The notes under the pieces: generated by a model
What the model was told of the DNA's origin: nothing
The model's input: the letters and a program-made list of their open reading frames with translations, nothing else
Databases searched by the model: none
Program-made: the position numbers and the translations under genes
In this document: positions 1,054-44,148 of the stretch, in pieces
Numbering within the stretch: position 1 is the first letter of the stretch
Layout of the letters: every line of letters begins with the position of its first letter
Source of the DNA: Heliocidaris erythrogramma
Lineage: Eukaryota; Echinodermata; Echinoidea; Camarodonta; Echinometridae
DNA: 64,000 nt
NCBI GenBank assembly: GCA_025617745.1
Contig: CM046854.1
Location: forward strand, 62,701,606-62,765,605
Direction: 5' to 3'

Positions 1054-1548
1054 GTATACCATAATGAGTCGTTGCTGGGAGAAAGAAGGTCAAAATCGGA
1101 ACAGCTTTGATGAAATCCTGAAGAGTTTGGAGAGGATTCTAGAAAAGAGTCATGTAAGATGGAACTCAAATTCGCTACTTATTTGGCAGAATCTTGCTCC
1201 CTTTATTGTACATATCTGTATAAGTTCATTTATTGACCTCACTTAATAAAGGTATGATAAAAGTACGAAGTCATTAGAAATCTATCTTGTGAGAAGAAAT
1301 AATGAAGACAAATTTAAATGAAATGATCCTGATTCGTAACTCATTGTAATCTTTATCTTTCACATTCAATATCATTATTAAAAGCAGCATCTGTTACGGC
1401 AAAATTCTTCCTGATTTTATTCAACGTGAAAAATGATAAGTGTAGTAGAGATCCAGTGTTATTGTGACTGATTTTTTTTTTCTTCACAGAATTACCTGTC
1501 TCTCAATGACCTGGACGAAGGCTTATACGCGTCATCACTGGAGATATG

Positions 1549-1549
<1 letters not shown>
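1054..1549 (+). CDS. Gene A: last two coding exons of an Ig-receptor tyrosine-kinase-like gene
   Basis: These are the end of a gene that starts upstream of the window. Exon 1054-1153 follows an acceptor CAG at 1051-1053, opens with the last base of a split codon and reads [20 protein letters not shown], the alpha-H/alpha-I end of a tyrosine kinase C-lobe (MxxCW signature). It ends at CAT before gtaaga. Exon 1490-1549 follows CAG and encodes [19 protein letters not shown] then TGA at 1547-1549, a 19-residue tail with two tyrosines (YLSL, LYASS). Both exons match gene B (30489-30588 and 30921-30980) almost codon for codon. The preceding kinase exon is not in the window: homology with gene B's intron begins only near 960, so this intron has been enlarged. 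Its catalytic residues are unseen, so pseudokinase status for gene A is inferred from its paralogues only. Confidence 0.85.
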
Positions 1550-10800: not shown

Positions 10801-13800
10801 ACCAACACCTGATGATGCTGAGGAGACTGTTGTGACTGTAGAAGGTAGATAAATAGAAGATGTTTACAGCGGCGGATCTATGATTTTTAATTCTGAAATA
10901 TTTCTGATAAAAAACAAAGGTCATCAACTTTGGGGGATGGGTACGCGTACGTTGTCGTTGACATGAAAATTGTTGATCATGCGGAGTCAGTCTCAGATGA
11001 TTTAATCGACATGCCATGGTTTTAGTCCACATCCTCTATGTGTACAACCAGTTCATATCAATCTTAAAATAAAATCTAGACCTTAGTGTACACCCTAAAA
11101 AGTGAAGTGCTGAAAAACGAGTGCTAATTGGAAGTTTGCACTTGACATGCTATTTCTAACACCTCACGTGCCATTTGCGTCTGGGAGATGATAAGGTGCA
11201 GAAAATTGAGTGCTAAAAGTAAGTGCTGAATGTTAGGACGCTCGTTTTGCACTTCAAGGGCCTGCTGCACAGGCATGGCGTGGTAAGTAAAAATTTAAGA
11301 CATTAAATTTAGAACTTCTGTAATTTTATGCGAATAAAGGTATCAAATAATATGATATTTACATTAATCTTTGTGGTGGTGGATATGAAACATGATGAAA
11401 AGCAATGAAGTGGAAATGCCATGTTTCAGCATGTGTGGTGTGGCCAAACGTCTACGGTACGCGTTGTCGTTGATATGAAAATTGTTGATCATGAGGGATC
11501 AGCAAGGCATGGGGCGCGATCGACCGCGCAGGCCGGGCCCGGGAAGTTTGGAAGGCGGTGTGTGTGCTTTTTTTTTCGTCACGATTGTGGATTGCCGAAA
11601 TGGAACAATTAAACCTCCGGAATTGCCACTTAAATCCACATGCCATGGTTTTAGTCCACATCATCATGTATACAAGCAGTTCATATCAATCTAAAAATAA
11701 AATCTAGACCTTAGTGTAGGGCTGTTTAACAGACTGTAGAAGGGTGAGTTCTCAGCACTACAGGTGTGATTTTGTGCATACTGTTTGTGTATGTAGGCCT
11801 ACTATATTGGGTGCAAAAGTGTTACCACTAGTAGTGCCGTTTTGGGGGCTCTAAAATGGGTTATTTAATGCACTAAAAGTGTGGTTTTTTTGCGAGCTGC
11901 ATGCGTCTAATAGCACCAAAAGTGTAAAAAAGCTTACACTTAAAGTGTTTAAAGTAGCACTAGGACTGGTGTTGAAGTATAGCACTTGTACAAGTGCTAC
12001 TTTAGCACAATTTGTGCAGTCCCTATGCGTGCCCTTAGAGGTACTGCCTCCAAATCTTGAGGTGCTAAAAATAGCACTTGAGTTTTTATAGTGTAGGGTT
12101 GTTTTATAACAAACTATAGAAGAGTGAGTTTTCAACACTACAGGTGTGATTTCGTGCATACCGTTTGTGTGTGTTCTTTAGCACTATATTGGGTCCAAAA
12201 AAGTTTGCACTAGAATTGCCGTTTTGGGGGCTCTAAAATGGGTTATTTAATGCCCTAGAAGTGAGGTTTTTTGCGAGCTGCATGCGTCTAATAGCACCAG
12301 AAGTGTAAAAAGGCTTACACTTAAAGTGTTTAAAGTAGCACTTGGTGCTGAATTATAGCACTTGTACAAGTGCTACTTTAGCATAGTTTGTGCAGTCCCA
12401 ATGCGTGCCCTTACAGGTGCTGCCTCCATATCTTGAGGTGCTAAAAATAGTACTTGATTTTTTTGAAGGAAAACAAATAAAGAAAATAGAAAGGTCATCA
12501 CAGGAGGTGTCTTTTTACTGCAAATTTTCTTATGCCACTCTTATGCCGTTTCAAAATGGGGGGGGGGGGGGGGGGGCAGGGCGCACAGAACCCATGAATC
12601 TGTCACTGGTTTTGATCGAACATGCAAATCTAAAAATGATCTATGTTCTTCATATATTTTCTACCTCCTTCTTAATATATGTTATACTCTTATTGTGTCA
12701 CACAGCGTTAAAACATTATTTTCACTATTATTTAGAAGTGCAACCTCTTTGAAGAGGTGTGTCTCGTCCCAACTTGTTTTGAAGCAAATGTCCTTATAGA
12801 CATTTAAATTCTATAGCGTATGCGCTATCGAAAAGCTTTAAAGATCTTCTTCAACATTAACATTATTATGCAAGGAAGTGTAGCGACTAAACCAGACGAT
12901 ATTCAATATAGGGATGGGGAAACTGTATTATGCAGCACATCAGAGAGATGAAACCATTGCTCATTGTTTAATACACGTTTGTTTTAGAAATTGCATATCA
13001 TTATAATTAGAACTATTATTTATTAATATTTACATTATTATTATTATTCTTATCACTATCATTATTATTATGATTACTATTTACCAGTTCTTCTCCTTCT
13101 GTTGTTTTATAGTTGGATCATCCCCACAGCCTATTATGTTGACATGTAATGACACCCACTACCAAGCAATATGTGATGCTGAAGAGAGTAAACCAGCAGA
13201 AACTATAACATGGATCTTAGATGGTGACGAACAATCTGATGGCATAGTGGTAATATACATTCGAGTTACTCTACCTCTATTTAGCAGGAGGAGCAATTTT
13301 ACATTTCTAGCAACCCGAGAGAACTTCAAAGTGGAATTGGTGTGTAACATCGATGGTCATCAAGTAACAAGATTGGATAGACAAGAATCAAGACTTGTGG
13401 ATTGTCATAGTAAGTATGAATTGTTTAAAGAAGAAACAACAAAAAGATAAAATCAATATTCTGATAGAGAAAATTGCAATGTTAAATCAACCTTGCGTTT
13501 CAACTACCCCACTCCCCTCTCAAATGAAGACATAGAGCCACATATTATAGCAAGAAGAGAGCATTTGATCAGATATGTTACTGATCAGTCAAGTTCATTT
13601 TATATCTATTTTGTAATTCAGCTCTTTGATCCAAATTCATAGTTGACATTGTTTTGTTTTTGTTCTTTTTGTTTTCATTATTTATTTATTCATGATAACA
13701 GTGCTAAATGAGCAATAATTGTGGCATTGTCTACACACTTAGAAAAAAAGGTTCAGCTTTGCACCCTAAATGCAACACTGGCAGCACCTTTTTGGGTGCA

Positions 13801-16800
13801 ATCTTGCACCCTACATGAAAAGGGTGCAAAAAATGCACTTTTTTGTTCTTGTTTGCACCCTTTAATGCCCGTTTACACCCTAAAAGGTGCAACTTTGCAC
13901 CTTTAAGGGTGCATACATTTTTGCATCCAAAGGGTGCAAATTTGTACCTTTTCTAAAAGGTACAACTCTGCACCCTTTAAGGGTGCAAAATGTAGCAAAC
14001 TGCACCCTTAAAAGTGCAAAAAGCTTCTGTTGGTGCAAAGTTGCACCAAAAAAGGTGCTGCCAGTGTTGCATTTGAAGGGTGCAAAATTGTACTTTTATT
14101 TCTAAGTGTGTACACTACATTAATAGTGTGCCGTTATATCTAACATTTCTATATAAACTCGACATGAGAGGCGGTGACAATTAGTTTAAAATTACTTTGT
14201 TTTCAGAAAAGTACTTAGGATTGTGAAAAAGTGAGATTTCATTAGGTTACATTGATTTGATTTTGTTTGTCCCTTGTTTTGTTTTGTTTTGTTTTTAATT
14301 CTTTCCCTAATTGTTAAGAAACATTTGTTAGCTTTCCAGAACTACATACTTATACATAAAGATTTGTGCTTTTCAAAAATTTTATTATTATAATTTTGTG
14401 TTTGTGATCATTCCAACAATTTATCAAGATGATTAACTTTTGAATTGTACTTTGTGTTCTCCTTTACTCATACGGGTCTTCCACAATCTGGAAGCATTGA
14501 TATTATAATAGATGTTCAAGAATCAACTCTTTTTGTGACGTGTGGAAGGAGTACTACAGTTGACCAAGCTACTCCAGCTATCACTAACTTCTATATCTAC
14601 TCCAATGGTACACTGATACCCAAGTCTACAGATTCAGTTAACACTGTCACTGTACCAAAGCCTGAGCAGAATACAGAGTTCAGATGTGAAGCTGGTAATT
14701 ACCTTGGAAATACAACAACTGAAACAACATATGAGCCTGGCAGTAAGTGAATTTCTATTTGTAGGTTGTGTGTAAGTGACTGAGAGATGTGTGTTAGTTT
14801 TGTTACACCACAGTGACTATGGGGTGAGTGCCATCTGTAGGCTGTGCTTCTTCCAAAAAAGTCTATTTGAAGGATCCAATTATAATTACATGACGTCATA
14901 CGTGCTTTAATTACAAAAGTATTCCGTCTGATCCTATAATTCTTTTTCATTTACTATTATTGATATAATTCTACTTTCTTTTTTCACTTTGCCATGTTGA
15001 GTAAATGTAATTCAAGAGATTGTATTGGAAATGTTTTGCCTAGTGTCACTAAAAGCAAGTGTCAGTAATATGGGGAAAGTGAAATCCTTTACATTTTTGT
15101 GATATATGTTATAGACATTTACTCAAATTAATTGTGTAAAGATAACGCAGAAAGCTGAAACATTCATCAGGCATCTTCTGATGTCAGTTTTAGTGGCAGG
15201 CAGGTCAGAGGGCATAATAGCCATATAAAGCCTAGGCAACTTTCATGTCATGGTAAAATGCATTGCTTTAGTGGCATTAAGCTTAATGACTTTGAAAGGT
15301 GCAATGATGTGTGGACTCTGGGGAATTTTAGGTCTGCTGTTTTTTTTATAATCATCCTGTATGTGATTGAAGTTTATACTTATTGAATACAGCTGGATTG
15401 AAGTCTGAATCATTATGATTGTGATATTGTTTTAAATGTTTGTATTTGTTTGAGTGATAGCCTGCGATGTGTGGAGCTTTTTGTTTGCGAATTGGGCTTT
15501 GTAAACTTAATGCATTGTTCTGTTTATACTTTTTCATCAAGATTTTCATCAATTTCATGTCAGGTATTTTTTATACTCATGTTTTCTCCCTCCAACTCCT
15601 TGATGCATCATTCTATTCACTTGTTTTTATTTTCATTACATGTTTGTAAGTTGTCTTTATTATTCGTATGCTCAGAGTTTAATCTGAAAAATGCATACCT
15701 AAAGCTGATTAGAAGCTATATCATATAAATGCCAACAATGGTATCAAATCCCTTTTAAGTAACCACTAGAATAAAAAAAAAATCTTGATGAAAAGAATAT
15801 TACTTTTACTTTTACAAAGCATTATCATTCTGGTTCAAACTTTCAGGAATGTTCTTTTTCTAACATTCTAAGTCAAATCAATAAACAAATTCAGCAACTG
15901 TCACACCAGTGTCAATATGTTAAGAGATATGTTAAGAGAATGGTATTCATAAATGCACGAAATTGTGCATTACATCCATACAAACATGTGTGAGTAAATG
16001 TACAGTAAATGTTGACATACAGTACATGTATATCTTCAACTAAACTTGCTGTCTTAGTATCCTGTTTCTACATCAGAAGAACAGCCTTTGCTGAAGAGGG
16101 TGATCCAGCCCATGTTTGGAAAATAAATAAAAAAAATAAATAAATAAAATAAAAAGGTAATGAAAATTAGTGAATATGACAGAGGAAATGACTTAGGGAT
16201 GAAAATGATGTACGTTTTAAGTATAGTTGTACACATCTTTTTTTTCTTCATTGATTATTTTTGTTCAGTCATTCTCATTAAATTGTAAAAAGGGAAATCC
16301 AATCTTAATGGTTAGTTGCTCCGAAAGAAAGCAGAAAAATCAGAGATGCAGATTGGTGAAAGTTTGAACGAAATCGGACACCAAATACGAAAGCTATGAT
16401 TTTTTTGAAGGTTATAATCATTATTCACAGGGGAATTTCAAATTGGCCTATTCGGTAATGCCACTGTGATGTAGCGGAGGAAAACTGTCCAATTGTTCCA
16501 ACACAAAAAAATGTGACTAAAATGTCAAATTTTCAAAAAATAATTCTCCGTTGGATCGTTTTCTTTTATGAGGTTCTATAACAATTTGCTATTTATATAT
16601 TTTAGTACTGTCCCGAGGGGAAAGGCGTTTAGGAGAAAACTGCAAATTAATGATATTTAAGTATACAACAAATGCGAGAGTTGACTGCCGACATGTCACA
16701 ATCGTCTCACCAAATTGCAATTTGAAATTCGCATAAATTGATCTCATTTTTCAAACATCCATGACTTTCTTATTTCTTGTCCGAATTCTTGCAAACTTTC

Positions 16801-22800: not shown

Positions 22801-25800
22801 AGGAATAAAAAAAACAACAACACGAAACTCTAAACAAATGGTTATTGTTGTCAAGCTATGTGCTCTATAAATCTAATTATCTTTTTCCCCACATAGTAGA
22901 GGTAATATGCTTTGAAAAGATACATTGATGGCAACAATCTGAACGTGCATTACCGAGCCCCATCGTTTTGAAATTGGTAAAAACCCAGTTGTATCAGATT
23001 TTGGTAAAACTGTGAAAACGTTTCATTCACACGCGAACTTGATCTGAAAAAAACAAACAAAATAACTTTAAAACCATATGAGAGGATTGGCTTCATATTG
23101 TTCTTTCAATACTTAGGGCCCCATCATTATAGACAAATTAATGTTGATGTCGAGGGTAAAGTCATCCTAACGTTTTCAGGGTTTTACCCAAAGCTGGCAC
23201 AAATTGATTTTTACTTGCCATTTTCAAAACGAAGTTGCTCTGTGAAGCGAGTATGGATTAGTGCCATCAAGGTATCATTTGAAAGGATATTACTTCTGCT
23301 TTATAATAAACAAGAAATTTAATTTATACATGTATAAATTTATACATCCTTAGTTCCCAATAATCATTTGTTTTTCGGGTTTTTTTCTGGGACACATTGT
23401 ATAGGTCATTAAACAAAATGAATGTGGAGAAGAAGTATAGTATAACGTTGAACTTTGATCAAAATGTTTCCCTATGTTTAAATGGAAGTGCATTTGTCTA
23501 GCCATGAGACCATGTTCAAACATATCATATGAAAACTCAAGACGGGTTGGTGAAATTTAATCCACTGGGCATGACATGTTCTTTCAACTTCCTTATTAGA
23601 ACTTGCTTGTAGGTATTGGCTTTGGGTTAAATTTACCTAAATGATATTCATATAGATTGAGAAATCATGCATAAAGGGAGGGGGGGGGGGGTGTTAAAAG
23701 GCAAGGTGTCTTTTTTGTTTACAAGATATCTTATTCTTATTATGTATAGAATATTCAAATATCCAGTTGGATACTTTACTCGATTTATGTGCTTATTTTG
23801 TCACCGTTTTGTAACTTCTTGAAATAATAGCTAAGATCATGCGCGATAATTTTAAAACAATAATATGCACTCTAAAGTGATGTTAAATCTGTACCCAACA
23901 CCAATCATATATCGTTATTACCATCTCTGTACAGAACCTTAGGGAAAGGACTAGACGTACAAGCTTTTATTCACATCATAGTTTAGCTATACGAATGTAT
24001 GATCTTGACCGATGTAAAAGTAATTTTTGCCCTTGACTCCTATACATGACTCAACCAAGTCATAAAATATGCCATTTTAGATGTGCTACACAAACAACAG
24101 AAATATCAATATCAAATGGCATGCATTGATACAAGCAACGTATATTGTTCCCATGTTACTTCAGCAAATATTAGGACAAGTATATTTGTGTATACAGACC
24201 AGGGTCTAAAGTTCAAATGATACCATGGTTGAACTGGTACATCACATTACTTGAGAACACACAGAATATAGTTCCTTAATTTCATAAGAGGGTTCCTGTT
24301 TTGAGGGGAATGAACTGAAAGGGGAATCCCCCCTGAATCTTTCAACTTATACGGTTGAAATTTCATTGCAGAAAAATTGAAAGTTGAAGCTTGATGGAAT
24401 TTGAACGATTTCCCCATCTCTTTATGGTCTTTTCTAGTCGAAAAAGAAAGAAAGAAAAAATAAAAAAATAATAATAACACGAAGAAAAAAACAAACATCT
24501 GTACTTATATTTTGTGTGTTTTCTGTTCAAATATATATACTGATATACCTTCAATTCTTAATTGTGTAATCTATCTAATTCACGTATCATGATCTAGTAC
24601 TTATGAAGATGGGGTAAATAGTAAATCTCATAGAGTATAGCGTTTAGCTCTAGATTTGTATGTAACATTGTATATTTCAGAGCCCACACCATGTATCTGT
24701 AAGCCAGCTGGACTAAGTTCCGGAGCTTCTACAGGCATTGCTGTCTTGTCAGTCCTCTTGGTGGGGTCTATCATCATCAATGTTATTCAGTTTATCGTGT
24801 GGAGGAGACATGGAACTAAACCAGGTTTATTAATGGATTGGGCACTATACCATATATTATACAGATGAAACATAAAGGAAGAAATAAATATGAAGGTTTA
24901 GTGTTGACAATTTCGGAATAACTTTATGATGATACCTGAATCAGTTTTTACCTCTAGATGCTCTACTGCAGTACCTACAGTGCAAGTACTTTGACAACCA
25001 AAATATATTTTTGAATTTTTGTTCTTTTTTATAGATATGTCAGTTCAAATCATATCAATCTACGTGCGTTTTAGGATATGAATGGGTTATAGATGCCATC
25101 GTCAGTATGTAATGTGCTATAGGCCTACACGTGTACATGTAAAAGGGGTATCTCCAAGAGAAGAGGAAATGAATTCAGGAATATTTGGTGGTTTTAAACT
25201 GGCATCTTGTGTATATTCAGATATTGTATCTTCCTAAATCTTATGCCATGTATTGAATGAAAACTTCGAAGTTATATGACGTGTCCAATTACAAGGTGCA
25301 TGATGTGTTGACGTAATGTTGTTGGACGACATTACCTATGCATAATACTAGAAATTAATAGTATGGATATTGTTTATTTATTCTGGCAAAAAAGACGAGT
25401 TATGATAATAGTCATCTTCCATCCCTTGATTGATGTGGTGTTTTAGATCATTCCATGAATTACTTTTCTTAATGTACAAGGCCTAAGTATACAACATCAC
25501 TAGCTCAGATAAGACATGCAGGAGAACCGTTTTATTCCATGTTGATCATAAATCAATGCACTTTTATGTTAAGAAAACACACATATTCTTGATTTCTCAT
25601 TTTACAGGTTTCGGAGAGTCTCAGAAAACTGCTTGCAGGTTAGGCTTAAAAAGATGGATTCATGTTTAATATTTGAAGTATATGTATAAGTTCCTCAACG
25701 AGTGCTACGTAGTATAGAGTATGAAACCTGATGCATTTTTAAATGAAAACAGAATCACTTATTCTTTGTTATCAGGAAATACATGTCAAAATATCAAAAT

Positions 25801-28800
25801 ATTGGGCTGATTATAACCTGTGATTGACTGATTATGATTCCTTCCTATGAACTAAATAAGCCGATATTCTACTAAATGTAATCCCTGGATAAAGATACAT
25901 GCATACATAAATTTCATATCTTTATTTGACAGATAAATCACTTTCCATTATACCAGTGGTTATGTGCATATCAGAAACTTTCATAGGCTAGATAAGACAA
26001 CACGAACCCTTTATTGTTTATACATGTATATACGTAGAGCTAGTGAAGGAAGAAATGAATCACAGGAGGCGAATGACAACACGGCGTATGAGATGATTAC
26101 AAGTGGAGGTAAAGGTAAGAATAGAAAACTGTAAAGGTAGCCAAGGATCAAAGACACCAAATATTCACAAACAACATAAATAAAATTTACAAAAATCACT
26201 ACTTGCAAATTTAAAAATGATACCGGTAGTTTTCTACACATGCGTTGACTCGATGCATTTAGAAAATTAATTAAAAGAGAGAACTGTTTTTTACAACCTA
26301 CACAATAATGATTTAGGAAGAAAATAACCGATACAAGATTGATGTAATAGGTTTATTTATTTCGTATTGATAACATAGTAAACCATACTTGTTATTAACC
26401 TGGGAAATAAACCCAAATCTGATTTTAAAAGAGATCTTCAACGCTCATGACACAATGTAACCCGTATTTACTAGCAACGTCTTTTTACCAGATCCTAAAT
26501 AAATTATGATCCCTTTGTAGCTGCCAAGTCATTGCATTATCTTAAATACTTACAGGCATTTGGGATACTATATTTCAATTTAACAGCATATACAGAACTT
26601 AAGGTCGGGCCTTCTGGGACATCTCACTCGCCCCTTATTGCTCCTGAAAACGTGAAGTTTTTCACCAGACTTGGTTCAATCGGACGAGGTGACTTCGGTG
26701 CTGTCTGGAAGGGTGAATTCCGCTCAAATCAGAGACAAACAGCAGTTGCTATCAGACAAATTCCAGGTCAGGTTTTGATAAAGCAAACAAATAAAAAATA
26801 ATAAGTTGGAAATTATGATATGAATTATCAAACAAGTTCATGTTCTAGAGGTGTTTTTTAGGGAGCATATGTGTATTCCCTTTCCAGAAACATTATATAC
26901 CTTACATTGATTAGTTTAGATCGTTCGTCAAAGAGAAACGCAAGGAATTTTTAAAAGTGAGTATTCAACAGAAAACAGTATATTGTTAATGCTGTTATGG
27001 TCCTGCAGACATATAACATGTTTCATATTCTACTGAAATAAGTAGTTACTTGCGTTATAAATACTTATAACAAATTCCGTTAGGTTTTAAATTGTAGCCT
27101 TTTCTTCAACAATCTTCGCACGACACTGTATACTGTATGCGCTAAACTGAAAGCATGGTATAATAATGAATCTGATAATCTTTCAGGTCAAATAACTACA
27201 TCGAGCAACGTACTCCAATCTATCAAGGTACTTTTTGAGCTTCCAGATCAACTGAATGTCGTTAAGTGTTTGGGATATTGTCAGCAACAAGGTAAAAAGC
27301 GGAAATTAGCTAGCGTATGTTTAATATTCCCTATTATATATAAACATAATACAATCAAACATGGGTAATACCTACTTACAATTACAACCAATGAGCAAAT
27401 TAATTATAAATTGGGCTAATAGTGCATTAACCTTAAGAATCTCGCACAGGACAGCTGAATGTTACATTGAAAAATCAAGGTTCAGCTTTTCACGCAACTG
27501 ACCAAACCAATAAAAGAATATATTGGTCTAGATCGGATACTTCCCTTGAGCTCAGTAATTGGTAAACATTTCCCTTTATCCTTATATTGTGGTGTACGAT
27601 GTAAACCATGTACTGTCCATCGTTTTCAACCATTCATTTACTTACCACTGATGCAGGTAGCGTCTTGTATGAGTTCATTTCTGGGGGTACACTGCTCACC
27701 CATCTTCAGACGACAGGGGTGCAATCTCAACCTACGTACAGCAACCTCAAACCAAACACGGTTCGTGTGGATCAAGGGAGTCTACTTAACTTTGCCTGGC
27801 AAATAGCAAAGGGAATGCAATTTCTTGCATCTAAGAAGGTAAACGTTGTTGTGTTTAATGGCCATGTAGAAAGATAACCAGTCATGCCGAGATTAAAACA
27901 AGAAATTAAGTACCCTCTACTTAAAGTAATAAAATAACGGATACATATTTAACCGGAACCTCTGTAAAGTGATATGATTATTGATATATGAAAGCATAGA
28001 TATACTACCGTTCGGTTGTATATCCATGTTGAAAGAGAGCGTAAAAAACCTGACAGAGGGTAATTTAGGTCACTTCCAGGGATTTACAGAATATTCTTCC
28101 TTTGGAAGAAAACAAACTGAAAACTTGATTTTTAAAGAATTTAACTATTTCTGAACTAAAATCATAATATTCTGATGAATTGGACATTGCAATTAAAACG
28201 ATAGATAAAAAAGAATAGGTGTGCAGAAAGAAGGAGAGAAGGTAATGGGAATGTATTTGTATTTGATTATGATAATGATAAGGAAATAAATGTATTTTGA
28301 ATCTGAATCTGAAGGTACAGATAAAAAAAGAAAATACATTGTAATTTCGGAGGAGGAGGAGCAAGACTGACAAGAACTATTTATTTTCATTTCGATTTTT
28401 TTACTTTTCCTAGATCATTCACGGAACTCTCTGTGCACACAATGTGTTACTAGATGAGAGAAAGCAATGCAAGTTATCTGATTATGGACTAGCCTCCTCA
28501 CTGTTCAGCAAAAGAGGTGTAAGTAGCCTACATGTGGTACTTTAATAATTAAAATTCCAAGCATTTCTGATGTTAGCCAACCGTAAAATTGAAACTACCA
28601 GCAAGAACTTTAAATTTCTCTAAATAATGTACCTCCATTAGTCTTTATATGAAAGGTTTGATTAGAATAATAATAATAAGATAAAAGATGCAATTATTAT
28701 TTCTTTGGCTCTTTCTTTGAATATAAATAAAGACAAAATAATCACTAAGTATCACAAGCCTAGTATTGCAAATGTTTGAATTATTCAATTGACTCCATTC

Positions 28801-30980
28801 TCTACTACCGTGACTACCTATGAATCCTATACTGAATAAGAGATTGATAGTACAACTGTAGCAAAGCATTGATTGTCAGTAGGAGTGCCATATCGAAATA
28901 AAGAGATGAATATTATCCTACTACCAGTTTTGAACAGTAAGGTTTTCATTTGTTCCATTTACTACGTCTTAGAAACCAACAAGATGGAGTTCACCAGAAA
29001 CCATGCTGACTGGTGTTCAGTCAACAGAAGGAGATATCTGGTCTTTTGGCATCGTCTTGTGGGAAATTGTGACTCTAGGTGTGAAAAAAATACTTCAGTA
29101 TTAAAAATGGAATCATGGGGATCAGGTTGTTTTATGCAGTAAAACAACAGACGTAACTTGATATGATGATTAAATAGATACGATTCATATCTGCGTCATG
29201 TAAACCATGCATTCTCGTTTATAAGACACATCCATAATACATGTATTTATATTTTTAAAATTGCATTGCTCTCATGCAAACACACAAGATAATACCATCT
29301 ATTCTCTTTTTTGTTTGCATGAATACCATTTTGTAGAATAACATGTTAATAGCCACTTCTATTTCTGGTAAAACTGAAGTATTTGTTTAGTTGGTCCATA
29401 GTCATATATTTAAATAATATGTTTCAATTGTTCTTGATTTGATTCATAAAGGTGCTCGGCCATACCCTAATACGACCTTTGACAATGTTCAGAAAGAGGT
29501 TGCTAATGGTTACAAGATGTCACGCCCTCGTCATTGTGGACAAGAAGTGTAAATAATCGTATTTCTATTAAGTCTTCCTCTTTGTTTTACAGAGTGTTTC
29601 ATAATTATCATACTTTATTTGAGTTAATTTATCATGTTAGATTTCATTATGAAATTACATTACATATATAGGTGGACATTTTTTTGAGCGTTATTCATTT
29701 CCGTACAATATGTGATATACTTAACTCTACTTTCATGCCCATATTGGTTCAGTTTAAAGAGGAGTGTTTTCTACCACTCCAAAAATATGTACATGTATTC
29801 AAATCAGTTATCTATAGAGTTAGGTGATATTTATTATGTCTTCCGCTACACCACAGTTACCATTTCAAAATATGAAAGCTCAAGTCCTATTGATTCGAGA
29901 AGGAGAATTTGATAAATGGAAATAGGGAGAAAAGGAGGATTAGTTTAAACCTAACCAGGAATTTTTTGTTGTACATATTTAAAGAAGAACAACGTTTTTT
30001 TCACGTTTGTGTAGTAAGAATATGACACTATGTGGATATGGAGTGCGCAGTTAGGATGCATTTAGGCATCAAGGCACGGCACCGGCAATAAATTTGAACT
30101 CGGGGCACAGAGAGATTTTAGAAATTGAAAATGTATAGCAAGTAACTCTCTGTAGTGTGCACATTCAAATCAATTGAACATTAAAAACTGGATTTGTGAG
30201 ATATTAAGTGACGTGATATAATAGAAACATATAGCATTATAGTACAGTGACATACATGTAATTATCGAATTGAAATCAGTCCAAGAGAAACATAAAATGT
30301 CACTTCATAAAAATTCAATGAATTTCTATTATTTTAGAGATTTTTGATAACACCAGAATGATATTGAGAAAGCTATGGTAGATAATTATACTTTCCCGTT
30401 TAATACATTAATGCCCTCTGTGTAATTACAAACATCGGTTATAGGAAATCATTATTACATAATAATCGCCTTTTTTGTAATCTTACAGGTATACCGTAAT
30501 GAGTCGTTGCTGGGAGAAAGAAGGTCAAAATCGGAGCAGCTTTGATGAAATCCTGAAGAGTTTGGAGAGGATTCTAGAAAAGAGTCATGTAAGATGGAAC
30601 TCAAATTCGCTACTTATTTGGCAGAATGTTGCGTCATTTATTGTACATCTTAATTATAAATAATTTTATTATTATATTGACCTCACTTAATATAGGCATG
30701 ATAAAAGTACGAAATCCTGTGAGGAGAAATAATGAAGACAAATTTAAATGAAATGATCCTGATTTCTAACTTATTGTGATCTTTATCTGTCACATTCAAT
30801 ATGATTATTAAAAGCAGCATCTGATACGGTAAAATTCTTCCTGATTTTATTAAACGTGAAAAATGATAAGTGTAGTAGAGTTTCAGTGTTATTGTGACTA
30901 ATTTGTATTTGTTTTCACAGAATTACCTGTCTCTCAATGACTTGGATGAAGGCTTATACGCGTCATCAATGGAGATATGA
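7838..30980 (+). CDS. Gene B: Ig-domain receptor pseudokinase (tyrosine-kinase-like), complete
   Basis: A spliced gene for a single-pass membrane receptor. Exons: 7838-7892, 10524-10844, 13113-13409, 14476-14742, 17999-18025, 22081-22113, 22559-22606, 24681-24824, 25608-25638, 26044-26114, 26587-26766, 27187-27291, 27657-27838, 28414-28518, 28973-29078, 29452-29548, 30489-30588, 30921-30980. They total 2229 nt, 743 codons with stop, and all junction phases agree. Order: signal peptide, three Ig-like domains, Thr/Pro-rich stalk, TM helix, juxtamembrane tyrosines, kinase-like domain, 19-residue tail. Gly loop IGRGDFG, DYG and SPE are present; the VAIK Lys is Arg and HRD is HGT, so phosphotransfer is unlikely. 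The Ig3 acceptor is GG instead of AG, so that exon may be skipped in frame, and a 41-nt stalk exon near 19088 is degenerate. The closest kinase type looks like the FGFR/Tie-like RTK group, but I cannot assign an orthologue. Confidence 0.85.
8781..10200. mobile_element. MITE-like element with TA target duplication and internal GTGCTA repeats
   Basis: The left end CACTCTAAAAA (8781-8791) and right end TTTTTAGAGTG (10190-10200) are perfect 11-bp inverted termini flanked by TA on both sides, as expected of Tc1/mariner-type non-autonomous elements. The interior is non-coding and rich in GTGCTA/TAGCAC units, with a unique middle at about 9000-9840. It lies in intron 1 of gene B. A related copy is at 11091-12093. 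Confidence 0.7.
10201..10523. repeat. Remnant of a second GTGCTA-type MITE
   Basis: A separate right terminus TTTTTAGAGTG at 10440-10450 is followed by TA. Its body (about 10320-10439) carries AGTGCTGAAATAGCAC-type units. No matching left terminus is visible, so it is partial. Confidence 0.55.
10524..10844 (+). CDS. Gene B exon 2: Ig-like domain 1
   Basis: Acceptor CAG at 10521-10523; 321 nt, phase 1 to 1. The domain has the V-set pattern: Cys in VSLECTTT, Trp in FIWNDGDDG, then DDGNYSCYL near the end (D-x-G-x-Y-x-C). NYS is a glycosylation sequon. One domain on one symmetrical exon fits exon shuffling and in-frame skipping. The gene C partner (42358-42677) is frameshifted. Confidence 0.85.
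11091..12093. mobile_element. Second copy of the CACTCTAAAAA-type MITE
   Basis: The left end CACCCTAAAAA (11091) and right end TTTTTATAGTG (ending 12093) are one-base variants of the termini of the 8781 element, again flanked by TA. Large parts match 8781-8945 and 9380-10200. The perfect palindrome AGCACTTGTACAAGTGCT is at 11981-11998. It lies in the intron after the Ig1 exon. Confidence 0.65.
12096..12465. repeat. Partial third GTGCTA array
   Basis: This repeats the right-hand third of the preceding MITE, including the same 18-bp palindrome at 12357-12374. The terminus is lost: the sequence runs into unrelated DNA after 12460. It may be an unequal-exchange product. Confidence 0.6.
12466..13112. 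other. Intron segment before Ig2
   Basis: A poly-G run at 12558-12576 and ATT-rich sequence at 13010-13070 are the only notable features. The poly-G neighbourhood also occurs in gene C near 43560-43640. Confidence 0.5.
13113..13409 (+). CDS. Gene B exon 3: Ig-like domain 2
   Basis: Acceptor TAG at 13110-13112; 297 nt, phase 1 to 1; donor gtaagt. Core residues: Cys in AICDAEES, Trp in [11 protein letters not shown], Cys in VELVCNIDG. An extra Cys pair (LTCND near the start, VDCH at the end) suggests a second disulfide. SNFT is a glycosylation sequon. Gene C 44224-44520 has the same length and frame. Confidence 0.85.
13733..14110. mobile_element. Foldback MITE with GGGTGCAA repeats, absent from gene C
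   Basis: The termini CACACTTAGAAA and TTTCTAAGTGTG are perfect inverted repeats, and the inner arms (a CACTGGCAGCACCTTTTT-type stretch on the left, mirrored near 14050) extend the hairpin. The interior is made of short GGGTGCAA units in both orientations. Gene C near 44825 shows the intact empty site, GTCTACACTACAT, which gives a TA target duplication. Confidence 0.85.
14476..14742 (+). CDS. Gene B exon 4: Ig-like domain 3 with lost splice acceptor
   Basis: The reading frame is intact (267 nt, phase 1 to 1): Cys in [18 protein letters not shown] at the core strand, Cys in TEFRCEAG, with NGT and NTT sequons, and a good donor gtaagt. The bases before it are TACGG where gene C (45169-45173) has the acceptor TACAG, so the invariant AG is missing. 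The nearest alternative AGs give stops or a frameshift. Skipping the exon would join phase 1 to phase 1 and give a two-Ig receptor. A polymorphism or base error is the simple alternative. Confidence 0.75.
14743..16280. other. Intron after Ig3 of gene B, first part
   Basis: I see no gene or clear repeat family here, only A-rich and AATAA-rich tracts near 15770 and 16125-16155. Gene C has the G-rich minisatellite at the start of the equivalent intron; gene B does not. Confidence 0.45.
16283..16835 (+). repeat. Dispersed ~500-bp repeat, copy 1
   Basis: Recognised by shared phrases with 16972-17462, 20640-21290 (reverse) and 21535-21945: 'GAACGAAATCGG', 'GGTAATGCCACTGTGATGT', 'TACTGTCCCGAGGGGAAAGG', 'GACATGTCACAATCG' and a closing 'TTCTTGTCCGAATTCTTGCA'. 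No open frame or obvious terminal repeats, so probably a non-autonomous element. Confidence 0.7.
16972..17462 (+). repeat. Dispersed ~500-bp repeat, copy 2
   Basis: Same order of landmarks as copy 1, about 150 bp after it and in the same direction: 'GAACGAAATCGGTCGAGC', 'GGTAATGTCACTGTGATGT', 'TACTGCCCCGAGGGTAAAGG'. Confidence 0.7.
17999..18025 (+). CDS. Gene B exon 5: 27-nt stalk mini-exon
   Basis: Acceptor ATAAACAG after a polypyrimidine tract; encodes RHTILSPTI, phase 1 to 1. The flanking intron phrase TTCATATTTCATAAACAG is shared with gene C mini-exons 47047-47073 and 54522-54548, which are richer in Thr/Pro. The role is likely a spacer between Ig domains and membrane. Confidence 0.65.
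   Translation, partial: DTPSFLQR
19088..19128 (+). pseudogene. Degenerate stalk mini-exon of gene B
   Basis: This aligns with gene C exons 52017-52064 (48 nt) and 55206-55250 (45 nt) and has a good donor (AAG before gtgatg). Relative to gene C it has lost the acceptor AG at the matching place and one base in the body. The 41 nt available would break the phase-1 frame; leaving it out gives an intact gene B frame. Confidence 0.6.
19461..19567. repeat. Long near-perfect hairpin, 47-bp arms
   Basis: The arm 19461-19507 pairs with 19520-19567 with a single-base bulge (five A versus six T) and a 12-nt loop. It lies in a gene B stalk intron. The matching part of gene C (about 52440-52470) has the flanks without the hairpin, so it was inserted or lost. 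It could be a foldback element or a source of small RNA. Confidence 0.9.
20640..21290 (-). repeat. Dispersed ~500-bp repeat, copy 3 (inverted, interrupted)
   Basis: Reverse-oriented relative of the 16283 repeat, recognised by TTTTCTCCTGGGCGACTTTT and CCTCGGGGCAGTA at about 20988-21018. It is interrupted by the insert at about 20815-20975. Confidence 0.65.
20815..20975 (+). mobile_element. Short non-LTR/SINE-like 3' tail nested in repeat copy 3
   Basis: It ends with AATAAA followed by ACTGAACTGAACTGAACTGAA, a short tandem tail typical of non-LTR ends, and splits the reverse-oriented repeat around it, so it is younger than that repeat. Similar tails are at about 6720, 35585 and 59230. Confidence 0.5.
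21535..21945 (+). repeat. Dispersed ~500-bp repeat, copy 4
   Basis: Contains 'GGTGATGTCACTGTGATGTAA', 'GTACTTCCTTGAGAGAAATTGCG' and 'ATGTCACAATCG' in the order seen in copies 1 and 2. Confidence 0.65.
22081..22113 (+). CDS. Gene B exon 6: 33-nt stalk mini-exon
   Basis: Acceptor TTTACCACAG; encodes [11 protein letters not shown], phase 1 to 1, before gtaaaa. It is paired with the 48-nt exon at 22559, echoing the short-plus-longer mini-exon cassette duplicated in gene C. Confidence 0.6.
22559..22606 (+). CDS. Gene B exon 7: 48-nt stalk mini-exon
   Basis: Acceptor CTTCCCAG; encodes [16 protein letters not shown] with an NHT sequon, phase 1 to 1, donor gtaggt. Same length and similar start (V-x-E/D) to gene C exon 52017-52064. 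Confidence 0.6.
22607..24680. other. Intron before the TM exon of gene B
   Basis: I see no gene here. The only features are short A- and G-runs (for example poly-G near 23682) and short open frames without family motifs. Confidence 0.5.
24681..24824 (+). CDS. Gene B exon 8: transmembrane exon
   Basis: Acceptor TTTCAG; 144 nt, phase 1 to 1. After a short Cys-containing stretch (TPCICKP) it encodes a hydrophobic helix (about AGIAVLSV-like start through [10 protein letters not shown]) followed by the basic stop-transfer WRRHGTKP. Gene C 58209-58340 keeps SGAS and [12 protein letters not shown], which fixes the frame. Confidence 0.85.
25608..25638 (+). CDS. Gene B exon 9: 31-nt juxtamembrane exon
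   Basis: Encodes [10 protein letters not shown] and ends phase 2; gene C 59979-60009 is the same length (GFEESQKTVSR). The short length suits the 71-nt exon that follows. Confidence 0.7.
26044..26114 (+). CDS. Gene B exon 10: juxtamembrane exon with first ITAM tyrosine
   Basis: 71 nt, phase 2 to 1, acceptor CTAG. Encodes [20 protein letters not shown] then SGGK. TAYEMI also fits an ITSM-like TxYxxI pattern. Joined to the next exon it gives [14 protein letters not shown]. Gene C 60837-60907 has NDNMAYEMV. Confidence 0.75.
26587..26766 (+). CDS. Gene B exon 11: kinase N-lobe, Gly loop and VAIR
   Basis: 180 nt, phase 1 to 1. Opens with AYTELKVG (second ITAM-like tyrosine), then a kinase start with [15 protein letters not shown], an intact glycine loop. 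Strand beta-3 reads [10 protein letters not shown], so the ATP-anchoring Lys of VAIK is Arg. Gene C 61776-61955 has the same change ([10 protein letters not shown]). Confidence 0.9.
27187..27291 (+). CDS. Gene B exon 12: kinase alpha-C region
   Basis: 105 nt, phase 1 to 1. Encodes [20 protein letters not shown] then [11 protein letters not shown], aligning with the alpha-C/beta-4 region of tyrosine kinases. No Glu sits at the usual alpha-C salt-bridge place; by eye it falls on Gln or Ser. That alignment is approximate. Confidence 0.8.
27657..27838 (+). CDS. Gene B exon 13: kinase hinge and alpha-E
   Basis: 182 nt, phase 1 to 0. Begins [17 protein letters not shown] (hinge and alpha-D), a linker with several Asn/Pro residues in the kinase-insert position, then [19 protein letters not shown], the alpha-E helix. 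Gene C 62796-62977 matches. Confidence 0.9.
28414..28518 (+). CDS. Gene B exon 14: catalytic-loop exon, HGTLCAHN
   Basis: 105 nt, phase 0 to 0, using donor gtaagt after GGT; this donor choice is required to keep frame with the next exon. Encodes [18 protein letters not shown], then [17 protein letters not shown]. The tyrosine-kinase HRDLAARN is HGTLCAHN: the catalytic Asp is Thr and the following Arg is His. Asn is kept, and DFG is DYG. The activation segment is short and has no tyrosine pair. Confidence 0.9.
28973..29078 (+). CDS. Gene B exon 15: APE-like motif and alpha-F
   Basis: Acceptor CTTAG; 106 nt, phase 0 to 1. Encodes [14 protein letters not shown] then [23 protein letters not shown] stands for APE and DIWSFG for DVWSFG, so the C-lobe fold is preserved. 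Confidence 0.9.
29452..29548 (+). CDS. Gene B exon 16: kinase C-lobe
   Basis: 97 nt, phase 1 to 2. Encodes [20 protein letters not shown] then [13 protein letters not shown], the usual Gx.PYP...G.R...P.C segment of tyrosine kinases. Confidence 0.9.
30489..30588 (+). CDS. Gene B exon 17: last kinase helix
   Basis: 100 nt, phase 2 to 0. Encodes [20 protein letters not shown] and the following [13 protein letters not shown]. Matches gene A 1054-1153 with few substitutions. Confidence 0.9.
30921..30980 (+). CDS. Gene B exon 18: C-terminal tail and stop
   Basis: Acceptor TTTCACAG; encodes [19 protein letters not shown] and TGA at 30978-30980. Two tyrosines are conserved with gene A. LINE sequence starts within a few tens of bases downstream. 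Confidence 0.9.
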   Translation, partial: NYLSLNDLDEGLYASSMEI

Positions 30981-30989
30981 TATGAAACC

Positions 30990-33315: not shown

Positions 33316-33616
33316 AAATGGCTTCACGATCGCGTTAACAAACTCTAGTACAATACAGGTTATAAAGGATGTTTACGACATTACATTCGGTAATTGTTAA
33401 GATTTACTTATCTTTCATTTCGGGTACGTGTAATTTTATGATGATTGCAACAGAGAACTATAATATTATGTCGTAAAGGGATTAGACTGCAAGAAATATC
33501 TTTTCATTAGCGACCAATTATGATTCATAACCTATTTGAAATTATTTTACAATTTAATTAATTGTTGATCCCGTAGTGTGTATCTTTATAGTCGACACCC
33601 AACCATATTATATATA

Positions 33617-33826
33617 CAGCCCTGGAGAAAATTATTAGACCAAGCTTCTGTAATAAAGGTACTTTAATATGCATTCAAACTAATGAAAACGATTTGTCTT
33701 TGTATTTCATCGAATGAATAACAATTCCAGGAATTGTACCTTGCTTTTATGATATGTTATTTCCTTCTTACCACAAATATAACACTTTCAGTAACCATTC
33801 TTGGTCTAATAAGTTTTCCATGGCTG
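33617..33826. mobile_element. 210-bp TA-flanked MITE (Tc1/mariner-like ends)
   Basis: The left end CAGCCCTGGAGAAAATTATT continues into AGACCAAG; the right end is its imperfect reverse complement, closing in CCATGGCTG, and TA flanks both sides inside a (TA)n tract. The A-B spacer has the plain (TA)n there (4896-4918), so insertion followed the duplication. A second, left-truncated copy is at 58873-59062. Confidence 0.8.
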
Positions 33827-33867
33827 TACATATATATATATATATTGAAATATCCACATGGGTGTCT

Positions 33868-34325: not shown

Positions 34326-34329
34326 ATAG

Positions 34330-35640: not shown

Positions 35641-35749
35641 ATTTTCGCCAAAACTTCAAAAACCTTCCAAAAACCGCTCAGTAAGAGGTTAGGGGTCCAG
35701 TTTGCCTCCATAATTCCCTGACAAGCAATAAAAAAAAAAGTGCCGGGAT

Positions 35750-36519: not shown

Positions 36520-36528
36520 TAAACCAAT

Positions 36529-39500: not shown

Positions 39501-42500
39501 AATCACCTTCCTGTGCTTCTCTGAATCGGAGAGCCAGGTCTCTGTGAGGCAAACAATGTCAAAGTCATGTTGAATGAAATGATCTGCCAGTAGGTCTGCT
39601 TTATTACAAACAGATTGGGCATTGATAACACACAACTTAGCACTGTTTTTGGCATGTACAACACTTGATTTATCAGAGGAAATGTAAGGGGGGCATAATC
39701 TATGATTGCAAGTGGTCCCATCGCTTGCATCAAGGTAGGGAAACGACCGTGCTGGAATACACCTTTGCTTTCTTCTCCCTGCTCTTTTACCTTTGTGAAT
39801 TGGTCGTTTCTGAATTCCCATAGAGTTTATGCCATACTTCCTCCTGCAGTGGACATGTTGTCAGGTTAAGTCTCTCAACATTAATATGTACCAATTTGTT
39901 TCTGTCATATGTCTTACGGTCATTTGTTGATGCATGAGCATTATAGCGATGCTCACCAGAGACAGAATTATGGCTGCTTGGTCCAGGATTCAGATCAATG
40001 TCCCCAGATAAAATAAGTCGTAGTTGGAAAGTCGAAGTTGTGTTTGCATAATATGCAATAAGATTTCCAGTAAACTTTGAGTGCTTCAACTGGAGTTGTG
40101 CATTACAACCATAGATCTTGGACTTCAATACATGAGGGCTGGTCAATGACTTTAGCTCCTTCCTTCCTACAGCAGATACAAGAACAATGGCCAGCAGGTT
40201 GAATGACTTCATTGTTAAGTCCATGTCCATTCAGGAAGACAATGGTATGTCTGGATGAGTGCACTTCAAAGGCCAAGACAAGAACATGGAGGACATGCAT
40301 GTAGTGATGGCTGAGTGTATGAAGACAGATTGCAAAAACTTTGTCCACTTTGATCTTCTAAAATAGCAGCGAAAAAACATCAAAAATAGTCTAGAGGGAT
40401 CCTGACTATATCACAAAAAGGCTGGTGTGCATAATGTAGCAAATCAGTCAAAAATAAACCAGCAACAGCACAAACTTGTAGAGCAAAGGAAGAGAGGGAC
40501 AGCCTGTCAGGCGCACACTCTCAATCTAATGATTCTAGCTAAATTGTCAACAAAGACCAATTTTGATCTAAAATTATATGTAACTAAATACTTTACCCAA
40601 ACTGATCATCTGAAATTATACAAATCGGCAAGTTCTATAATTTTAAACAAATTTTCTTTTCGAGGAAGAACATATAATAAAACATTGTGATTTACATTCA
40701 TCAATCAAAGAGCGTCATGCATATAGCCTGGCGAAACGGAGTGGCACGAAAAGTCGCGTCTGGAACCCAAACGGCGATAAAGGAAAATTAGAAGTTGTAA
40801 TTTTACATAATTATATAATGGAAGTTTTGGTTATATTAAGCATGATGAAGGTATTTGAGGTATTTTTACCCGCTATATGGTGTAATGATAGGCCTATGGA
40901 CGCATTTTTTTGTACCATGAATTTCACTAAGCTACATATTAAAGTATTCCTTGCCTGTCGTTTATCCGAGAGGATATGGGTATTTGAAAATTGATTTAAA
41001 TCACTGGTATCCGTGTGATCCCGAACGTGTATAAAAAAAGAATATGGCCGCGCAAAACAAACGAAAGTAATGAAAAGAAGAAAGAAAGAGAAGAAGAAGA
41101 AGAAGAAGAAGAAGAAGAGGAAAAAGTTTTGAGATCCTATATCTCTAAAAGTATTTATGCTTTGGACCTTAGAAAAAGAAGAGAAAGAAAGAAATAAAAA
41201 GTGTCAGCCGCCAGGCACTAAAAAAAAAAAAAAAAAGATTTTAAATTTAATTTTAGGTCTGTTTTTTTTTTTCTGGGTGAAATTATTAAAACAGCTATTT
41301 CAATAAGTGAAACTGAAGACTGAAAAGTTTAATTTAGGCTACAAGAGGTCCAAATTGATCACCGTAACTCCCCAGGGCTATGCATGATTTGAACTGTTTA
41401 AGAACCCAGCTGACGTAGTTTTACAAGTGAAATCAAAGATTCGAAGAATGATACTTTCGTCAGTATTTTTTTCTTCTTTTGTTCTTTTTGTGAAAAGTAA
41501 CTTACATTAAATCTTCATGAACGATTCTATTCATATGTTTCATGTTCAGTGAAGTTGATTAAGCCCTCTCAGTAATTTGCAATGATTTGATCTGTCTGAC
41601 CGTACACGTGCAATACTAATAGAGTACTAATACGTTGATTATGTTTTTTCTTTTTTCACCCATACCAGGGGTCTGGCAGACTTCGATTATCCACAAATGT
41701 AACTGGGGAACATACGATATACATGTCAACGCAATTCAGTTCAGTTTCAGTTCAGTTTTTATTCCACATCAAGCAAACATACGAATGCATGATGAGAGTG
41801 AGAGAGAGAGAGAGGGGGGGGGGGGGGGGGGAGAAGCAAAGTGAATAGACGCTGTGCATGCACGATATGACTACCTCTAAGAAATACTGCAAAATGTATA
41901 CGACCATCTAACTTTCCTTAAGTCGCATTAACCCATACTGGTGAACAGAGAACATATTACGATAGATTTCAAGATCGGCTATAGAACTGCCCTTTACCAT
42001 GCAGTTTATTTACCCCACCATGCCCCTATTCTGTAACTTTCCCCTTTGGCTGGCCACTGATAAAAAACATATAATAATTCGTATGTTTCATCTCATTTTA
42101 TCCTACTTTCCTTACATCCTACAACTAATTTTTAAATGAAATGTGTTCTCTCATATATCTTTTCAATAAATTCAACAAAATAATATAAATCATTTTCCGC
42201 CCTACATAAACGATTAAAGAAAGGTCGGAAAATGCCGCCAACGGCTAGCCCGGGCTGGAATATAGCTCACAGCATGGAAGGGCTTACATATGTAGCTTTT
42301 GCCATGTTTAATCACATTTCAGTAACTTTTAAACTTGTTTTTGTAATTTTGTACCAGGTATCCATGGTCAAGTAACTAGACCACCATCCACTGCTGCTGC
42401 TCTTGGAGATGATGTATCATTGCAGTGTACCACTACACAGAGTAATCCTACCTTTGTTTGGGTTGATGGAGATGATGGGATGGGTATATACACTGGGACT

Positions 42501-44148
42501 ATCAGAGTGACAGGTAACCCAGAACATGCTAACATAGAACTAGGTGCTAGTATAGTGATCCGCAGATGTCTGTACTGAATATCAATGACATTGAAATGGA
42601 TGATGATGGCAACTATACCTGTTATCTTACTGGACATCAACCATCTGAGGATGATGAGACTATGGTGACTGTAGAAGGTAAGAAAATACAGGATGTATAC
42701 AGCAGCGGATCCAGGATTTTAATTCGGAAAAAAGTTCTGACATAAAACAAAAGTCATCAATTTTAGGGATTTGTTTGTAACTCCAAAATTCTCTGACAAG
42801 CAAACCAACAAAAATCAAAACACACACATTAAAAAAAAGGGGGATGTACGTCACTCTGTATCTTTTCTTTATAGAAAATAGTTCGATAAATGAAAAAACT
42901 CTTATATGCATACAATTGCGCATGTGTGTGTAATTGACAGCGGCGACGGTGTCTCGTCATGACAGGGTGTGTGTGTGTGTGTGGGGGGGGGGGGGGAATT
43001 CCAGAAAACACCAGCGACCAAACGGGCAGGGTCTGTCAAGATACACCCGGAGAAGATTTACATTTTTGGAGGATAGCTACCATCCATTTTAGGCCTCGGT
43101 AAATTTTTATCGATGATTTGCGACCTCGCATAGTGACCGAGGGAAAATGAGATATTTCTTTTAATTTCTGGCTATGACATTTTTATATTTAAAACACTTT
43201 TGATTCGGGGCGGATCTAGGAATTTGTAGATAAGGGATCAACAATATATTTTAAAAATTCCGACGAGGATAAAAAAATAACGAAAATAGAAAGGTAATAA
43301 CAGGAGGTGTCTTTTTACTGCGAATTCTCTGACAAGCACCCCCCCCCCCAAAAAAAAACAAAACAAAAAAAAACAAAAACAAAAACACACACAGAACAAC
43401 CCCCTAAAACAAAACAAAAAAAAAAAAAACACGCACAAGTACATCCCCAAAACACACAAAAAAAGAAAGACAAACAAAAAGTGAACAAAACAAAACAAAA
43501 AATCATCACCTCAAAACAACCCCCCTCCCCCCCCCCCCCAAAGAAAAAAGAAAGCGCGCCGGTAGGGGGGGGGGTGGGAGGGGAGGGGGTACGCCACTTT
43601 TAGTTTCAAAATGGGGGGCAGGGCGCACATATCCCCTCAATCCATCACTGCTTTTGATTGAACATGCAAATCCAAGAATGACGTCTGTTCTTAAATCCTG
43701 TCTTTTTACTCTTAATGTGTCACACAGCGTTAAAGTAGCTATCCAAAGAAAATCACAAATATGGCAATTAATGTATCACTAGAAAGTGGGAAGCTTACAG
43801 ATGGCAATCGTATAAGTTTTATGTCAACTGTATTTTTACCGTTTTATAATTGATAATAATCATTACTTCAAATGTTTCCAAGCGTTGAATTTGGATAACC
43901 TTATTTAATTTATGCCATCTATGCAATAATAAGTATTAAGCCAATATTTATTTTGATGGAATTTTCTTGTAATGTGATCTTTAAAACATATTGTTTCAGC
44001 AAATTTCTAAATTCACCGATTGAGAAGGCAACCCCTTTGAAAGGAGAGGTGTGCCTCGTCCCATCTTATTTTGAAGCAATGGTCCTGATTGAAATTCATT
44101 GTTATTATTATTTATAATTATTTATAATATTATTAGCATTATCATTAC

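Follow-up and report, generated by a model that had tools for sequence, protein, structure and literature searches.

Conserved loss of catalytic residues in a tandem family of putative immunoglobulin receptor pseudokinases of the sea urchin Heliocidaris erythrogramma

The DNA analyzed here (the window) comprises 64,000 nucleotides of Heliocidaris erythrogramma (assembly GCA_025617745.1, contig CM046854.1, forward strand, 62,701,606 to 62,765,605) and lies within a tandem gene array that spans 1.3 Mb of this contig (C2 below) in a genome of 1.06 Gb. A match to bindin in that genome (PF02084, 240 bits) is a likely sign of an echinoid, the named control genomes of this search being prokaryotes. 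Three members of the array were found in the window: gene A (copy p10A), which ends at the window start, gene B (p11B), and gene C (p12C). By genomic order, each pairs a receptor-type kinase domain with upstream immunoglobulin (Ig) exons, and gene B is the one followed most closely below. Its part from the transmembrane (TM) segment to the stop codon (24681-30980) consists of 11 exons with AG/GT sites throughout, which can be joined into a single open frame. In window coordinates these exons are:

24681..24824, + strand: TM exon, in one open frame with the kinase; its hydrophobic stretch ends in WRRH (homologue in gene C at about 58220-58340)
25608..25638, + strand: juxtamembrane exon 1
26044..26114, + strand: juxtamembrane exon 2, NDNTAYEMI, holding the first Tyr of a pair resembling an immunoreceptor tyrosine-based activation motif (ITAM)
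26587..26766, + strand: kinase exon k1, with YTEL, the Gly loop GRGDFG, and VAIR
27187..27291, + strand: k2, alpha-C helix with Ser for Glu
27657..27838, + strand: k3, hinge and alpha-D/E
28414..28518, + strand: k4, with HGTLCAHN, DYG, and a short activation loop without Tyr
28973..29078, + strand: k5, SPE and DIWSFG
29452..29548, + strand: k6
30489..30588, + strand: k7
30921..30980, + strand: last exon, C-terminal tail of 19 residues and stop

The spliced domain of gene B matched PF07714 with 218 bits over positions 6-258 of 258 (the query carried a single wrong residue, KREKP for KRGKP), i.e., it has the fold of a receptor tyrosine kinase (RTK). Exon k1 encodes GRGDFG and VAIR, with Arg replacing the VAIK Lys, while k4 encodes HGTLCAHN and DYG, with HGT in place of HRD and the catalytic-loop Asn retained. 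An earlier reading of the letters without database searches (the sequence-only reading) had given exact coordinates for the interval that holds these four motifs, and the AG/GT intron sites were confirmed. It was also right that SPE and DIWSFG are kept in addition to the Gly loop and DYG, although not about their place, as it had put them inside 26587..28518 and both are found in k5, just beyond that interval and past the donor GTAAGT at 28519 that directly follows k4. The alignment to known RTKs that it had proposed bore out the absence of Lys and Asp and added a loss that it had missed, that of the alpha-C Glu: in the HMMER alignment, the Ser of NVLQSIKVL stands under the Glu of Tie2. The catalytic Lys, Glu, and Asp are thereby all missing in genes B and C. 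The activation loop of gene B is in addition shortened in comparison to Tie2 and lacks Tyr. Changes of K to R and of D to N are the classical laboratory means of making a kinase dead. Judging by its sequence, the gene B kinase is probably catalytically dead. Other exons had been named as a possible source of the Lys and the Asp; a motif scan of all six frames of the window turned up no such exon, neither VA[IVL]K nor an HRD-type catalytic loop being present in any frame from 24 to 31 kb.

A genome protein search with gene B recovered at least 26 copies in four places: 19 in the C2 tandem array (p01-p19, 61.84-63.14 Mb), four on C5 (q1-q4), two on C13 (r1-r2), and one at 17.5 Mb of C2 (s1); the counts are lower bounds and the search scores only the best candidates. 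In a tree of 18 of the 26 copies, all 18 grouped together (100/99) apart from two other kinases of this genome in which Lys and HRD are retained; the branches are long and the exact root is unsure. Several copies are broken or partial, namely p06, p09 (k1 only), p13 (start of k3), p14 (no k1-k2 found), p15, and q1, as well as q4 (no k1 found) and r2 (k1-k3 only, within the stretch examined). The exons k7 and k8 of many copies fell outside the stretches examined, and the last exon of p18 was not found within 649 bases after k7. What look like border faults in p01 k2, in k4 of p07, p12C, and p13, in k2 of the q copies, and in r1 k7 are changes in length that keep the frame and have usable sites adjacent to them.

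The altered residues are conserved throughout the family. At the beta-3 VAIK site, 21 of the 22 readable copies have Arg, always encoded by AGA, and the HRD Asp is missing from all 24 readable k4 exons (HGT in 16, HGS in five, HGN in three). Glu is likewise absent from the alpha-C column, defined from the Tie2 alignment and a seven-member alignment, in 24/24 readable k2 exons, s1 having a Glu one position earlier. DYG is retained in 23/24, and p15 has a stop at that site. The alignment of seven members (gene B and six others, 42-84% identical to it) shows Arg56, His158-Gly159, Asn165, Asp178-Tyr179-Gly180, Glu199, and Asp211 to be invariant, as is G37 of the Gly loop. In none of the seven does the activation loop contain a Tyr apart from that of DYG, and s1 has lost the middle glycine of its Gly loop. 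Gene C carries the same two changes as gene B, as the sequence-only reading had noted (k1 at 61776-61955 and k4 at 63946-64000, the latter exon running past the window end). The VAIR and HGT changes are not a matter of chance, as all copies whose catalytic loop can be read (24/24) share these losses. Loss of the catalytic residues apparently preceded the amplification of the family.

Selection on the kinase was estimated as the ratio of nonsynonymous to synonymous substitution rates (dN/dS) from Nei-Gojobori counts on the kinase exons of 19 of the 26 copies, excluding damaged or length-changed exons; 123 of the 171 possible pairs passed the thresholds of > 150 codons and dS > 0.1. Over these 123 pairs, dN/dS had a median of 0.16 and a maximum of 0.34. 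For instance, it was 0.15 between genes B and C (dS 0.61), 0.15 between B and r1 (dS 2.1), and 0.22 between B and s1 (dS 2.4), saturated dS values being rough. The kinase exons are under purifying selection, and these low ratios reject a random decay of the kinase. The domain of gene B combines the loss of Lys and HRD Asp with an intact kinase frame and a family median dN/dS of 0.16, as expected of a pseudokinase. A conserved pseudokinase lineage had been proposed from two copies, along with a comparison of dN/dS between them; Arg in 21/22, the missing Asp in 24/24, and a dN/dS of about 0.15 for both B vs. C and B vs. r1 support it.

The spliced juxtamembrane part of gene B reads YEMI-x6-YTEL, 14 residues that match YxxI-x6-YxxL exactly and fall within the ITAM consensus YxxL/I-x(6-8)-YxxL/I; YEMI and YTEL are also present in p10A and p18. 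By this motif match, the pair may be called ITAM-like. Across the 1.06 Gb, the coding pattern NDN-x-AYEM[I/V/M] occurred 20 times, with 17 of these places inside the C2 array and the other three on C5; its reversed control had no match in the genome. This pattern fixes position +3 to Ile, Val, or Met and is blind to other residues there; it had no match in p14, p15, q1, r1, r2, or s1. The +3 residue of the first motif is Ile or Met in 7/20 (read as Ile in p10A, p11B, and p18), and YT[EAS]L, the second motif, opens k1 wherever the start of this exon is undamaged, s1 excepted. At least two tyrosines were found in the tails of A, B, q2, q3, and r1, the q and r tail matches being weak (E 0.03-0.08).

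Upstream of the TM exons, the following Ig exons were identified in genes B and C:

10524..10844, + strand: gene B Ig1, V-set (PF07686 36 bits; PF13927 36 bits at 10526-10849), AG acceptor, GT donor
13113..13409, + strand: gene B Ig2, CD80-like C2-set_2 (PF08205 29 bits at 13115-13447), AG acceptor, GTAAGT donor
14470..14742, + strand: gene B Ig3, start approximate (Ig_2 22.9 bits, below the cut-off of 27), non-consensus acceptor, GTAAGT donor
42358..42690, + strand: gene C Ig1, frame interrupted, ends approximate
44226..44567, + strand: gene C Ig2 (C2-set_2), stretch as queried (PF08205 38 bits)
45182..45445, + strand: gene C Ig3, queried stretch, by itself without a Pfam match (Ig2 and Ig3 together 85% identical in amino acids to gene B)

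In the stretches scanned with Pfam, which lie outside 15-24 kb, only Ig exons were found for the ectodomain of gene B. A genome search with the Ig exons returned 75 matches (31-99% identity), 68 of them within 61.77-63.23 Mb of C2 and the remaining seven at 67.7-67.9 Mb of C2 and on C17. The sets of Ig exons at C2:62282711-62299882 (minus strand) and C2:63171353-63229863 have no family kinase exon nearby among the matches listed, and are possibly ectodomain-only genes or genes whose kinases were missed.

Ectodomains and kinases were compared in nine of the 26 copies, pairing each Ig set with the next kinase downstream; Ig1 of p12C was excluded (shifted frame), and Ig1 of p03 was also not included. 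The two halves have separate genealogies. p07 and p12C encode identical kinase proteins (219 codons, dS 0.007), while their Ig2 and Ig3 are only 52% alike (dS 0.92), and p08 and p11B show the reverse, with Ig parts 84% alike (dS 0.14) and a kinase dS of 0.61. Approximately unbiased (AU) tests, on groups that were chosen after inspecting the distances, rejected the clades p07+p12C (p 0.012) and p03+p08 (p 5e-5) with the Ig2+Ig3 data, and p08+p11B (p 1e-4) as well as a four-copy Ig clade (p 2e-4) with the kinase data. The Ig exons change faster than the kinase exons. The ectodomain dN/dS was 0.4-0.7 in 34 of 36 pairs, and single domains reached >= 0.8 in 5/24 comparisons, with few changes in each. 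Around Ig1-Ig3, the alignment of genes B and C extends into the introns (mostly 82-90%), with some blocks of 71-84% between Ig3 and TM, whereas in the TM-kinase part it is limited to the exons (79-87%). This contrast, together with the separate genealogies, speaks for recombination or gene conversion in the interval from Ig3 to TM. The family is thus a multigene array with a variable ectodomain that has a genealogy of its own, as judged from the nine copies paired by genomic order.

On C13 (34780999-34782000, minus strand), r1 has a Sushi/CCP exon (PF00084, 22.9 bits, cut-off 20.7) less than 1 kb from a TM exon resembling that of gene B. This suggests that more than one type of ectodomain has been joined to the TM-pseudokinase module.

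The other family exons of the window belong to genes A and C:

1054..1153, + strand: gene A k7 (C2:62702659-62702758)
1490..1549, + strand: gene A last exon (C2:62703095-62703154)
60837..60907, + strand: gene C juxtamembrane exon 2, NDNMAYEMV, ends taken from the alignment to B
61776..61955, + strand: gene C k1, VAIR
62391..62495, + strand: gene C k2
62796..62977, + strand: gene C k3
63946..64000, + strand: gene C k4, HGTLCAHN, continuing past the window

Downstream of genes A and B, homology (983-8217 vs. 30419-36951) reaches about 6 kb past the stop codons in pieces of 77-88%, so the duplicated unit exceeds the gene. At p18 and p19 (C2:63045364 and C2:63138050), kinase and Ig exons are repeated about 90-93 kb apart with a kinase dS of 0.021, which may reflect either a segmental duplication of recent date or a haplotype that was left uncollapsed. 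The window also contains mutually related frames that resemble non-LTR reverse transcriptases, labelled by eye, at 2812-3225 (+), 31714-31992 (+), 37560-38129 (-), and 48590-49582 (-). Elsewhere, C3:6141236-6141817 encodes a further receptor-like kinase, whose catalytic loop has HGD and whose DFG is replaced (KICTMS); we take it to resemble PTK7/CCK4.

Among known proteins, the family is closest in layout to the Tie, KIT, FGFR, and PDGFR group of RTKs, with which it shares the PF07714 domain, a single TM, and an Ig ectodomain. After a two-domain EGFR chain, the best PDB matches of the gene B kinase were Tie2 and then RET in a single-sequence search, and KIT, Tie2, and FGFR1 in a profile search. 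Unlike these receptors, the urchin family lacks the Lys, the alpha-C Glu, and the HRD Asp, has a shortened activation loop without Tyr, and counts about 26 copies. ErbB3, EphB6, EphA10, PTK7, Ryk, and STYK1 are likewise receptor-type folds without catalytic residues that are kept by selection, but they are represented by one or two genes per genome, in contrast to the tandem family with mosaic ectodomains described here; to our knowledge, receptor pseudokinases are known as single genes. The HG[N/S]L motif and DYG for DFG give the s1, q, and r copies a likeness to the kinase-homology domain of receptor guanylyl cyclases, whereas the rest of the gene B domain is tyrosine kinase-like. Membership in that group was rejected, as gene B is without a cyclase domain and ends with a stop 20 codons after k7, i.e., with a 19-residue tail, and no cyclase was present among the best 60 of 1282 PDB matches to the s1 catalytic loop. 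Arrays of genes or exons with variable outer parts, Ig-type or other, are familiar from KIR, NITR, Dscam, FREP, and SpTransformer, and we know of none of these with a kinase-dead RTK domain.

Within echinoderms, PMC10322840 describes sea urchin KSR3 as a pseudokinase with altered VAIK and missing HRD that acts by allostery, although it is a cytoplasmic relative of the RAF family and not a receptor. An expanded, clustered family of 'tyrosine-protein kinase receptor' genes was described for Apostichopus japonicus (PMC5638244; repeated in PMC13228809). It is likened to the present one by description only, as a clustered RTK-like expansion in an echinoderm (PMC5638244), and the portions of both papers that were read make no mention of a loss of catalytic residues or of Ig mosaicism. 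Those read of PMC8662651 and PMC3703292 contain no mention of the gene B family. Among the titles and abstract openings listed, we found no earlier description of the family; subscription papers were mostly uncovered, and a prior description is possible.

We propose that the gene B family encodes Ig receptors that signal non-enzymatically through a dead kinase and recombine their outer parts, a reading to which we assign a probability of roughly one half. The predicted architecture comprises V-set, C2-set-like, and further Ig domains on the outside, one TM, a juxtamembrane Tyr pair, the dead kinase, and a short tail with two Tyr. The outer Ig part would recognize variable ligands, which may be microbial, allogeneic, or self-adhesion partners. 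Upon receptor clustering, other cellular kinases (Src/Syk type) would phosphorylate the YxxI-x6-YxxL pair and the tail tyrosines, and the kinase fold, together with the tail, would offer other kinases a docking site or an allosteric surface instead of working as an enzyme. In other words, the predicted receptor is most likely phosphorylated rather than phosphorylating. More specifically, V-set/C2-set ectodomains that recombine and are fixed to a conserved, kinase-dead RTK tail bearing an ITAM-like motif could constitute a non-self or allorecognition system, in which a variable recognition half is paired with a homogenized dead-kinase half; we put this forward tentatively, considering it unlikely in this narrower form.

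Several observations weigh against the proposed receptors. The model is built on genomic sequence, and Ig exons were paired with kinase exons by genomic order only. The lone k1 fragment p09 (C2:62609688-62609867) matches gene B at 98% over 50 residues but has VAIK, with the only Lys seen in the family at that site. Among the closest kinase pairs (dS < 0.03), dN/dS is scattered between 0 and 1.8 and uninformative. Copies that are nearly identical may in some cases be haplotypes that were left uncollapsed. Position +3 of the first Tyr motif is Val in 13/20 copies and s1 is without the second motif, so the ITAM is strict in some copies only and not family-wide. The AG acceptor of Ig3 is absent at its expected site in B (it is present in C, p08, and p10A), and the frame of gene C Ig1 is shifted; the ectodomains of B and C may be decaying, Ig3 may be skipped in B, as the exon phases would permit, or the assembly may contain base errors. 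Finally, V-set plus C2-set is an architecture of adhesion receptors too.

This last point leads to a reading of the family as adhesion, developmental, or gamete-recognition molecules rather than an immune family. The variable Ig ectodomains would then mediate recognition, homophilic or by cell type, and the dead kinase would provide a cytoskeletal or SH2 scaffold. In the PDB, the Ig part matched, among others, Kirre-like, SYG-1/SYG-2, nectin, and Dscam chains as well as antibody and T-cell receptor chains, all weakly (best E 3e-5), whereas the size of the tandem array, the mosaic of ectodomains and kinases, and the rapid change of the ectodomains are, by analogy, more usual for recognition families; we see this as possible, with the odds against it. 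A dead receptor could also heterodimerize with an active RTK, as ErbB3 does, and serve as its allosteric activator and substrate. Such a role would suit a receptor-type kinase fold near the Tie/KIT/FGFR group and has an echinoderm precedent in KSR3, which allosterically activates RAF (PMC10322840), but with the Asp missing from all 24 readable copies an active paralogous partner is not evident, albeit a best-candidate search can miss distant ones, and overall we think it rather unlikely.

The two remaining explanations contest the dead but maintained kinase itself, and both appear highly improbable. In one, the domain would be an active kinase by unusual means, the loss of Lys and Asp being compensated elsewhere. 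With the Gly loop (except the middle Gly of s1), the catalytic-loop Asn, and the DYG Asp kept in nearly all copies, metal and nucleotide binding would still be possible, and the s1 Glu lies just one place before the alpha-C column; however, Lys, alpha-C Glu, and Asp are all lost together, the Gly loop offers no WNK-like Lys (G37 is invariant; WNK is compared from general knowledge), no alternative exon was detected by motif, and none of the seven aligned members has an activation-loop Tyr. In the other, once-active receptors would be decaying as pseudogenes, in line with the broken or partial p06, p15, q1, p09, p13 k3, and p14 (lacking k1-k2), as well as with the Ig3 acceptor of B and the Ig1 frame of C. 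Against this stand a kinase dN/dS of about 0.15 at dS 0.6 to 2, exons that are intact in most copies, and identical losses throughout; for the kinase of the family, pseudogene decay is contradicted by dN/dS and splice sites.

Echinoderms possess large innate repertoires. If the proposed reading is true, the gene B family would mean that a dead kinase can serve as the signalling half of a large recognition family. Its many copies would form a natural series, with Thr, Ser, or Asn in place of the Asp and Ser, Thr, or Arg in place of the Glu, that may tell what selection keeps in a pseudokinase. A V-set receptor family with an ITAM-like juxtamembrane pair would also be informative about the way in which Ig receptors came to be combined with tyrosine-based signalling outside vertebrates.

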